A stretch of DNA of 36,484 bases from the NCBI GenBank assembly GCA_019116305.1, contig DXBY01000060.1, positions 1 through 36,484 of the forward strand. The letters are read 5' to 3'. This stretch comes from Candidatus Ruania gallistercoris (lineage in GTDB: Bacteria > Actinomycetota > Actinomycetes > Actinomycetales > Beutenbergiaceae). Each line of letters opens with the position of its first letter. Position 1 is the stretch's first letter. A program made the translations under genes and the position numbers. A model generated the notes under the pieces. It was not told the origin of the DNA. It searched no databases and worked only from the letters and a program-made list of their open reading frames with translations. This document shows, piece after piece, positions 17,237-20,022 of this stretch.

Positions 17237-18244
17237 GTGTTCGCCGCAGTGGTTCACGCTCCAGTCCCCCACCGGAGCCGCACCGTCCTCCTGGGCATCG
17301 TGCTCCCGGCGGCGTTCCTGGTCGGGGCGTTGCTGCTCGTGCTGGTCTGGCGCGACCGGCTACCGGCGGAGGTGGCGGTGCACTGGGGACCGACCGGGGT
17401 CGACCGCACCGGCACACTGGCCGAGCTGGTCGCGGTGCCGATGGTGCTCGGCGCCGCAGGCTGGCTGATCGTGAGCATCCTGTGCCTGACCACCGCGCGG
17501 ATCGAACTGATGCGGCGGCTGCTGGTCGGAGTGGGCAGCGGTCTGGGTGCCCTGTTCGCTGGTATCACGCTCAGCAGCGTCGCGGTCCAGCTGGACATCA
17601 CCGATGCGAGCACAGCTACCGATCCCACCATCGGCGTGGTTGTCACCATGGCAGTCGCGATCGCGGTCGGCGGCTTCGCCGCAACTCTGGCCGGAAACGA
17701 CCCGCCGCTACCGAGCCCTGTCCTGGTACCGGCCGACGCCCCGCGCTCCGATCTGCCGGGGTCTGCGTACTGGGCCGGGGAGGCGCGCACCAGACACGTC
17801 TGGCCGATCTGGCTCATGACAGCGGTGCTGGTCGGCGCCGGGGTGTGGTTCGGCAACGCCACCCATCAATGGTGGGCGGTCGTGCCCTTCGTGCTGGTGG
17901 GCGCCCTGCCGCTGCACCTGCTGCGCTGGCGGGTGCGCATCGACCATCGCGGCCTGACCGTGGCCGGGCAGCCGGGCTGGCCCCGCCAGCGCATCCCGGC
18001 CAACGAGGTGGTCCGAGCCGACGTCATCGAGGTGCAGCCGTTCCGGGAGTTCGGCGGCTGGGGACTTCGCATCGCCGGCGACGGTCGCACCGGTGTGGTC
18101 ACCCGCGCCGGTGCTGCGATCCAGGTGCAGCGCTCCGGCGATCGCGTGTTCGTGGTGACGATCGACGGCGCCGCCGAGGCGGCCGCGCTGCTGAACACCA
18201 TCGCCGACCGCAGCCGGCGCCACACTGTTCCCGGAGATCAGTGA
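17237..18244 (+). CDS. DUF1648-like multi-pass membrane protein
   Basis: VLLGIVLPAAFLVGALLLVLVWRDRLPAEVAVHWGPTGVDRTGT plus several hydrophobic segments; GTG start chosen by inference. Confidence 0.7.
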   Translation: MFAAVVHAPVPHRSRTVLLGIVLPAAFLVGALLLVLVWRDRLPAEVAVHWGPTGVDRTGTLAELVAVPMVLGAAGWLIVSILCLTTARIELMRRLLVGVGSGLGALFAGITLSSVAVQLDITDASTATDPTIGVVVTMAVAIAVGGFAATLAGNDPPLPSPVLVPADAPRSDLPGSAYWAGEARTRHVWPIWLMTAVLVGAGVWFGNATHQWWAVVPFVLVGALPLHLLRWRVRIDHRGLTVAGQPGWPRQRIPANEVVRADVIEVQPFREFGGWGLRIAGDGRTGVVTRAGAAIQVQRSGDRVFVVTIDGAAEAAALLNTIADRSRRHTVPGDQ

Positions 18245-18300
18245 GACGATAGGATACGAATCACTCGCACCTTCAACCAATCGGAGGATCGGAGGATCGG

Positions 18301-18354
18301 ATGTCGCTCTTGCGGCTGACCGTGATCGCGGGCTCTGGCGCCTGCTGTCCGTAG
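18301..18354 (+). CDS. Putative 17-aa cysteine leader peptide MSLLRLTVIAGSGACCP*
   Basis: atg tcg ctc ttg cgg ctg acc gtg atc gcg ggc tct ggc gcc tgc tgt ccg tag, preceded by tandem ggaggatcggaggatcgg Shine-Dalgarno; 140 nt before cysK. Confidence 0.6.
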   Translation: MSLLRLTVIAGSGACCP

Positions 18355-18394
18355 AGCGCGGGCGCCTGTGAGCCCCCGCGCTCGCCCCACAGGC
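18354..18394 (+). promoter_or_regulatory. Interleaved alternative stems after the leader ORF (candidate attenuator)
   Basis: Stem A gagcgcggg (18354-18362)/cccgcgctc (18375-18383); stem B gcctgtg (18364-18370)/cacaggc (18388-18394); the two are interleaved. Confidence 0.5.
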
Positions 18395-18494
18395 AGGGAG
18401 ATGCGACCGCTCCCGCCTGAGCTCTTCACCCTGGAGAGCCAGCACAGCTCCGGAACAGTACTCCACGACCACTCACAGCAAAGGAACGCATCCC

Positions 18495-19430
18495 ATGGCA
18501 CGCATCTACGACGACGCCACCGCCCTGATCGGTAACACCCCCCTGGTACGGATCAACTCCCTCACCGAGGGGGCGGGCGCCACTGTGCTCGCCAAGCTCG
18601 AGTTCTACAACCCCGCCAACAGCGTCAAGGACCGGATCGGGGTGGCGATCATCGACGCTGCCGAGGCCTCCGGGGACCTGCCCGCCGGCGGCACCATCGT
18701 CGAGGCCACCAGCGGCAACACCGGGATCGCCCTGGCGTTCGTGGGCGCCGCGCGCGGGTACGACGTGGTGCTGGCGATGCCGGAGACCATGTCCAACGAG
18801 CGCAAGATGCTGCTGCGCGCCTACGGTACCGAGCTGGTGCTCACCCCCGGTTCCGGCGGGATGAAGGGCGCCGTGGAGAAGGCGGAGCAGATCGCCGCCG
18901 AACGGCCCGGCGCGATCCTGGCCCGGCAGTTCGCGAACGAGGCGAACGCGGAGATCCACCGCCGCACCACCGCCGAGGAGATCTGGAACGACACCGACGG
19001 CAACGTCGACATCGTGGTCTCCGGTATCGGCACCGGCGGCACCATCACCGGTGTGGGCCAGGTGCTCAAGGCGCGCAAGCCGGAGGTGCAGATCATCGCT
19101 GTGGAACCGGCCGACTCGCCGATCCTCTCCGGCGGCCAGCCCGGGCCGCACAAGATCCAGGGCCTGGGGGCCAACTTCGTGCCCGAGGTGCTGGACACCA
19201 GTGTCTACGACGAGGTGATCACCGTGGCCACCGATGACGCGCTCGACTACTCCCGCCGCTCCGCCAAGGAGGAGGGACTGCTGGTGGGCATCTCCTCCGG
19301 TGCGGCGTTGAAGGCCGCGATCGAGGTGGCCAAGCGGCCGGAGAACGCCGGGAAGACCATCGTGACGGTGATCCCGGACTTCGGGGAGCGCTACCTGTCC
19401 ACGGTGCTGTTCGCCGACCTGGCTGAGTGA
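18495..19430 (+). CDS. cysK: Cysteine synthase A
   Basis: [23 protein letters not shown]...[15 protein letters not shown] (PLP Lys), [30 protein letters not shown]. Confidence 0.96.
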
Positions 19431-19443
19431 GACCGAGGAGAAC

Positions 19444-20022
19444 GTGTCGCCCCACCTGCCGCTGCGCGACCTGATCGCGGAAGACCTCGCCACGGCGCGC
19501 CGGCGTGACCCGGCCGCTCGCTCCGCCGTCGAGGTAGCGCTGACCTATTCCGGGGTGCACGCCCTGTGGCTGTACCGGCTGGCGCACCGGATGTGGCGCA
19601 CCCAGGTGCTCCGGCTACCGGCCCGGGTGCTGTCCCAGCTGGCGCGCGCCCTCACCGGGGTGGAGATCCACCCCGGTGCGGTGCTCGGCCGGCGGTTCTT
19701 CATCGATCACGGGATGGGCGTGGTGATCGGGGAAACCGCAGTGGTGGGTGACGATGTGCTGATGTTCCACACCTCCACTCTCGGCGGCCGCTCGATGAGC
19801 AAGGGCAAGCGGCACCCCACGCTCGGTGACCGGGTGGTGATCGGGGCCGGGGCCAAGGTGCTCGGCCCGATCACGATCGGCTCCGACGTGCAGGTGGGGG
19901 CGAATGCCGTGGTGGTCAAGGACGTGCCCGACGGCGCTGTGGTGGTGGGGGTGCCGGGGCGGCCCCGGCACGTCTCGGCTCGGTCCGAGGACGATCTGAT
20001 CGACCCCGCGATCTACATCTGA
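19444..20022 (+). CDS. cysE: Serine O-acetyltransferase
   Basis: GTG start; [44 protein letters not shown]...[25 protein letters not shown] (hexapeptide repeats). Confidence 0.95.

Follow-up and report, generated by a model that had tools for sequence, protein, structure and literature searches.

The window analyzed here is a 36,484-nucleotide stretch of Candidatus Ruania gallistercoris (contig DXBY01000060.1, positions 1 to 36,484), and all of its own features described below lie on the forward (+) strand. It carries cysK (18495..19430), encoding cysteine synthase A (TIGR01139, 449 bits against a cut-off of 351), and cysE (19444..20022), encoding serine O-acetyltransferase (TIGR01172, 237 bits against a cut-off of 211). 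Between the end of the upstream ORF at 18244 and the start of cysK at 18495 lies a short ORF (18301..18354) for a leader peptide, MSLLRLTVIAGSGACCP*, which has orthologs in many genera, including MSPSRLTVIVPSGCCCP* at locus L002 and MSHRRLVSSVLSGCCCL* at locus L003. The cysK gene has its own Shine-Dalgarno (SD) sequence, AAAGGA (18480..18485), and the leader ORF is preceded by a tandem one (18283..18296), in which GGAGGA occurs at 18283-18288 and again at 18291-18296. Near the 3' end of the ORF are two Cys codons, TGC TGT (18343..18348). The second of them, TGT, stands at codon -2, and only a CNN codon separates it from the TAG stop. A preliminary description of the window had proposed this ORF to be a cysteine-responsive attenuator leader followed by two interleaved stems, A and B. 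Its ORF, stop, strong tandem SD, Cys codons and stems were all confirmed at the positions given here. It had also called the leader short and not poly-Cys, which fits the window (two Cys codons and no run of them), whereas the leaders of relatives range from a single Cys to many (e.g., CCRCCGCCCL*). A repeat of the octamer ggcgcctg is indeed present twice, but at 18337-18344 and 18361-18368, one base to the left of where it had been reported; it is not kept in the nearest relative, L002, and was dismissed.

The leader peptides have no match in Pfam or NCBIfam. Only two tRNAs in the window exceed an Rfam gathering threshold, so that the leader RNA falls in no Rfam family, and a relaxed search with the element (E <= 10) gave nothing credible. 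A conserved stretch, TTCAACCAATCGG (18272..18284), lies upstream of the leader, with one copy per genome in four genomes of the family; in each of them TTCAACCAATYGG, at the same window positions (18272-18284), is found just 5' of cysK. The four genomes include one genus without the leader element. It is a possible operator or 5' UTR element.

Leader reading frame and last Cys codon

A protein search with cysK in 39 related genomes and the GTDB contig collection returned 110 loci, about thirty of which have a short Cys-ended ORF ending in TGT-CNN-TAG-AGC. Altogether, 74 distinct cysK-linked elements share UGU-CNN-UAG-AGC and a hairpin, stem A, that starts on the G of the stop codon. Their leaders are 15-43 codons long, with an unconserved N terminus. 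An in-frame ATG or GTG start with an SD sequence (at least 4 of 6 matches) is present in 63 of the 74 elements, compared to 5 and 6 for the other two frames; under a stricter criterion (ATG, 5 of 6 SD matches) the leader frame qualifies in 35 of the 74 and the other frames in 0 and 0. By this comparison, the leader reading frame is real.

In the 74-element set, Cys at codon -2 is a consequence of motif selection, and the position was therefore retested without requiring the motif. Of the 21 Cys-ended leaders that have a strong stem close to their stop, 20 proved to carry the TGT-CNN-TAG motif, and the remaining one is a doubtful ORF. Codon -2 (window 18346-18348) is TGT in all 20 convincing cases. 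At the remaining Cys codons of the 74 leaders, TGC outnumbers TGT threefold (151 vs 48), so the fixed TGT is not a matter of plain codon usage. Cys is enriched at codons -3 to -6 of the 74 leaders and many leaders have Cys codons well upstream, but only the last Cys position is fixed. The leader ORF and its Cys codons are conserved in relatives, as is stem A, and this supports the original proposal of a cysteine-sensing leader peptide before cysK-cysE.

The nucleotides of stem A and UGUC-NN-UAG are better conserved than the N terminus of the peptide, as would be expected if the ORF were incidental to a structured RNA or to a site bound by a protein. Such a reading is very unlikely, given a start and SD specific to one frame, the enrichment of Cys at codons -3 to -6 and the lack of an Rfam match. 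Alternatively, the product might be a functional Cys-rich micropeptide, for example a metal or thiol binder, to which the most Cys-rich leaders would lend themselves. This is extremely improbable: the leaders vary from 15 to 43 codons with no conservation at the N terminus, some have one Cys, none matches Pfam or NCBIfam, and stem A lies directly against the stop codon.

Stem A and candidate alternative helices

The 5' arm of stem A (18354..18362), placed by a slide test and by covariation, has the G of the TAG stop as its first base; the 3' arm (18375..18383) is followed by a conserved flank, GCCCC. In the window the stem is 9 bp long (GAGCGCGGG/CCCGCGCTC). Across elements it ranges from 7 to 12 bp, with a 5' arm of mostly 9-11 bp, and its loop ranges from 3 to 77 nt. 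Anchored at the stop, stem A has a mean score of 25.5 over the 74 elements vs 14.4 in shuffles, and in the slide test the score peaks exactly at stop+2. Because the 3' arm was picked for complementarity, shuffles in which the same choice is made are the fairer test; against these, z is 3.9 in the window and averages 3.15 over the 74 elements, a mean that is somewhat raised by the selection of part of the set on stem A. In 29 sequences retrieved by their protein similarity, pairing is kept in 92.5% of stem A cells and 12 cells have changed on both sides, compared to 3.1 in shuffles (0/500), and shifting the partner arm destroys the pairing signal. Moreover, an Isoptericola locus, L052, which was found by the protein search and lies outside the 29-sequence covariation set, has TAGGGCGTC/GACGCCC, with a compensatory change from A-U to G-C at an otherwise invariant pair.

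Stem B is a 7-bp helix in the window (GCCTGTG/CACAGGC; 5' arm 18364..18370, 3' arm 18388..18394) that joins the loop of stem A to sequence just beyond stem A. Since the two stems are interleaved, together they would form an H-type pseudoknot, and with no base common to both they are not strictly exclusive. In the preliminary description they were competing structures, with a stall at the Cys codons favoring stem B, and covariance of the two among relatives was suggested as a check. Stem A does covary (12 vs 3.1 cells). In favor of the A/B pair, the window sequence allows both stems, and one compensatory change in B distinguishes L001 from L002. However, among the three closest relatives this change in L002 is accompanied by a mismatch in L003, stem B does not outscore shuffles either in the window (z = +1.2, positive being weaker than shuffles) or over the 74 elements (mean z +0.18), and the stem A loop that would supply one of its arms varies from 3 to 77 nt. 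We consider an A/B switch highly improbable, and stem B is not supported as a conserved helix.

No other alternative helix emerged in its place. Over the elements, pairing was no better than in shuffles for the stem A 3' arm with downstream sequence (mean z +0.25), the leader with the 5' arm (mean z +0.09) or the 5' arm with downstream sequence (mean z -0.14). With both arms and the loop tested, there was no conserved, mutually exclusive antiterminator helix sharing an arm of stem A. In L001, L002, L017, L022 and L025, a conserved A+B pseudoknot resembling that of the LEU element was an appealing fold; it was rejected because loop-to-downstream pairing does not exceed that of shuffles over the 74 elements. 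A small hairpin between the Cys codons and the 5' arm was likewise set aside, as the partner bases do not covary. Stem A is, on these comparative data, the only conserved helix of the element.

The region downstream of stem A has slightly more structure than shuffled sequence does (mean z -0.77). It includes hairpin C (CAGGCAGGGAG/CTCCCGCCTG, 18390..18419), which folds in all ribosome positions modelled and has counterparts in L002 and L003 but is not universal. Hairpin C as the terminator of a classical A/B/C attenuator was rejected on two grounds: no U-tract comes after it, and in two elements, L178 and L180, stem A and cysK are only about 45 nt apart. No intrinsic terminator with a U-tract is found in 18150-18560. 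In a thermodynamic model, the mean unpaired probability of the cysK SD-AUG region is 0.53-0.56 in all four ribosome states, and the mean change in SD accessibility with ribosome position is 0.00 to 0.02; sequestration of the cysK SD by leader structure is thus not seen in the modelled folds. The spacer to cysK (18384..18479) is C-rich and a possible Rho-loading region. Between stem A and the cysK SD, the composition across elements is 47% C and 27% G, and within the window's family it is 45% C and 26% G in members with the element vs 39% C and 30% G in those without, a weak hint at Rho.

A separate feature was seen in the Cellulomonas group (L034, L053, L057, L119, L176, L181, L184 and relatives), where a GC-rich hairpin lies within the last 45 nt before cysK. 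Its sequence changes, and it sits right before the conserved CUCGACCGAAGAGGAACCAUG at the start of cysK; it is a possible second control acting at initiation.

Distribution of the element and its linkage to cysK

The element occurs in Actinotalea, Cellulomonas, Promicromonospora, Demequina, Myceligenerans, Georgenia and the closest relatives of the window, and also in Gordonia zhenghanii. In the Isoptericola locus L052 it appears as a TAG-GGC variant with a compensating C, and two Cellulosimicrobium loci have a Cys-rich leader that ends in TGT-CGC-TGA, without the motif. Among the 110 loci, it is absent from the cysK loci of Agromyces, Leucobacter, Brachybacterium, Corynebacterium and others. 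It is also absent from five of the eight genomes of the window's own genus and is therefore dispensable. The window's family also includes Pseudactinotalea; the Pseudactinotalea suaedae locus (L031, NZ_WNXY01000012.1) has the same upstream sequence as L011, the cysK contig of G014, a genome of this family.

Linkage to cysK is tight. The pattern CTGTCNNTAGAGCG, searched in 149 genomes of the order, gave 30 fetched matches, of which 26 have a strong stem A with cysK directly 3' and the other four have neither. In a later set, all 41 strong-stem-A copies checked precede cysK, and all four weak-stem motif matches do not. When 248 genomes of the order were scanned with a covariance model of the element, 42 of them had a hit, a single one in each. 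A stricter pattern had three matches in 396 genomes of the class; judged by their arms, only that of the window is a true case, and the element is therefore confined to a few families. In Mycobacteriaceae, one of 30 cysK loci (L190) has it, besides that of Gordonia zhenghanii (L040). The cysK of L190 is 78% identical to that of the window, higher than in other members, and L040 and L190 possibly reflect horizontal transfer of cysK together with its leader. Two identical copies of leader and cysK, near the two ends of contig 1 of genome G226 (L257 and L258), are probably an assembly overlap of a circular chromosome.

The same searches brought up Chloroflexi cysK genes with Cys leaders of their own (L085:1774-1927 and L092, with similar ones in L079, L110 and L093). 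The peptides are MFTCICRRRGS*, MFTCSCLRRGS*, MTHCICTRRGH* and MKLNCLCKRRGTI*. At L085 the leader lies between a perfect TTGACA-16-TATAAT promoter and a hairpin that, with its T-rich tail, resembles a terminator; this one looks like a textbook-type cysteine attenuator.

Predicted control of cysK-cysE

Taken together, the conserved ORF, the position of its last Cys codon, stem A and the link to cysK are the observed basis for proposing that the element is probably a ribosome-mediated, cysteine-responsive attenuator of cysK-cysE, genes that make the very amino acid to be sensed. From these we infer translation of the leader in the cell and the direction of the response to cysteine. With enough Cys-tRNA, the ribosome would pass the last Cys codon, release at UAG and depart, whereupon stem A would form from the stop-codon G and turn the transcript off. 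With Cys-tRNA in short supply, the ribosome would wait with the UGU of codon -2 in its A site. By toeprint spacing, the leading edge of a ribosome lies about 15 nt past the first base of the P site. A ribosome waiting at UGU would cover roughly stop+1 to stop+6, blocking 5 of the 7-12 pairs of stem A, and cysK-cysE would be expressed. The last Cys codon is thus placed so that a waiting ribosome would cover the 5' arm, as the preliminary description had it, and stem A is an RNA helix within reach of a ribosome stalled there. In elements with a 7-bp stem A, such a ribosome leaves at most 2 pairs; a stall should therefore keep stem A from forming, which would make stem A the OFF signal. Counting against the model, a starved ribosome that stops at an early Cys of a multi-Cys leader may leave stem A uncovered. 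For the last step we favor Rho-dependent termination, which would take place in the exposed C-rich spacer once stem A forms. Blocking stem A would free its interior, which could pair with the spacer and mask it, and no single fixed alternative helix would be needed.

The opposite logic, that of the 2:3 helix of the E. coli trp leader, would make stem A the ON structure, formed when the ribosome stops upstream; in the OFF state a ribosome at the stop codon, with its leading edge at about stop+12, would cover the whole 5' arm. The usual 5' arm length of 9-11 bp is the extent covered by a ribosome at the stop codon. Cys codons also occur well before the stop in many leaders, and a ribosome stalled at the first Cys of the window leader would cover only about two of the nine stem A pairs. 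Against this, leaders of the L022 type, with a 7-bp stem and their only nearby Cys at codon -2, could not form stem A during a stall at that codon. Downstream of stem A there is no conserved sequence with which its 3' arm would pair in the OFF state (mean z +0.25), and the last Cys position is the only fixed one. Because multi-Cys leaders would allow upstream stops, we retain this reading as an unlikely alternative to stem A as the OFF signal.

Candidate leader peptides of cys operons were described in Mycobacterium, Propionibacterium acnes and Bifidobacterium longum (cbs) by Seliverstov et al. (2005; PMC1262725), who found no conserved hairpins and suggested Rho. Common to those leaders and the present ones are a short ORF with Cys codons near its stop, a place before cysteine-synthesis genes in Actinobacteria, the lack of an intrinsic terminator and the suggestion of Rho. 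Those described here differ in having a 7-12 bp covarying hairpin that starts on the stop codon and a last Cys codon fixed as UGU at codon -2. The cysteine-responsive polycysteine ORFs of mycobacteria (Canestrari et al. 2020, as recounted in PMC9094748 and PMC13236596) likewise lie upstream of cysteine-related operons, with a response to cysteine reported. As those accounts present them, they are leaderless and poly-Cys, whereas the present leaders have an SD and the stop-codon hairpin and may contain just one or two Cys codons (one-Cys leaders exist among relatives); also unlike the mycobacterial case as recounted there, the modelled folds give no sign of cysK SD sequestration. The strong SD of the window leader would argue against a leaderless transcript.

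More distant systems share single features. The uORFC-8-2 motif of Rhodobacterales cysS (PMC8632094) likewise links an RNA stem to a short ORF with tandem Cys codons, but it belongs to another gene and phylum, has its Cys codons inside its first stem, and ends in an intrinsic terminator with a U-run, of which none was found here. The E. coli trp leader also has codons for the sensed amino acid just before its stop and a helix at the stop codon; its antiterminator/terminator pair and U-tract were not found in the present element. The LEU element of actinobacterial leuA (PMC1262725) is similar in combining a leader peptide and RNA structure with no terminator, but its leucine codons pair with the leuA SD and it has a conserved pseudoknot, neither of which is seen here. 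We found no published description of the stop-codon-anchored hairpin in the open-access papers searched. It is conceivable, if rather less than an even prospect, that the element represents an undescribed class of cysteine attenuator, in which clearance of the UAG would let the hairpin, as the only conserved RNA structure, form and act through Rho or another factor, with no alternative helix or U-tract terminator.

Judged by sequence comparison, the element is real and conserved, and it adds a hairpin to a known kind of regulator, the actinobacterial cys leader peptides. No conserved RNA structure had been assigned to those leaders, known since 2005, and their mode of action therefore stayed open. 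The element supplies one, a covarying stop-codon hairpin whose distance from the last Cys codon is fixed and which recurs in many genera. A handful of point mutations in cultured relatives (Cellulomonas or Demequina) would now be enough to test the mechanism, and the element serves as a search motif for cysK control where leader peptides lack annotation.
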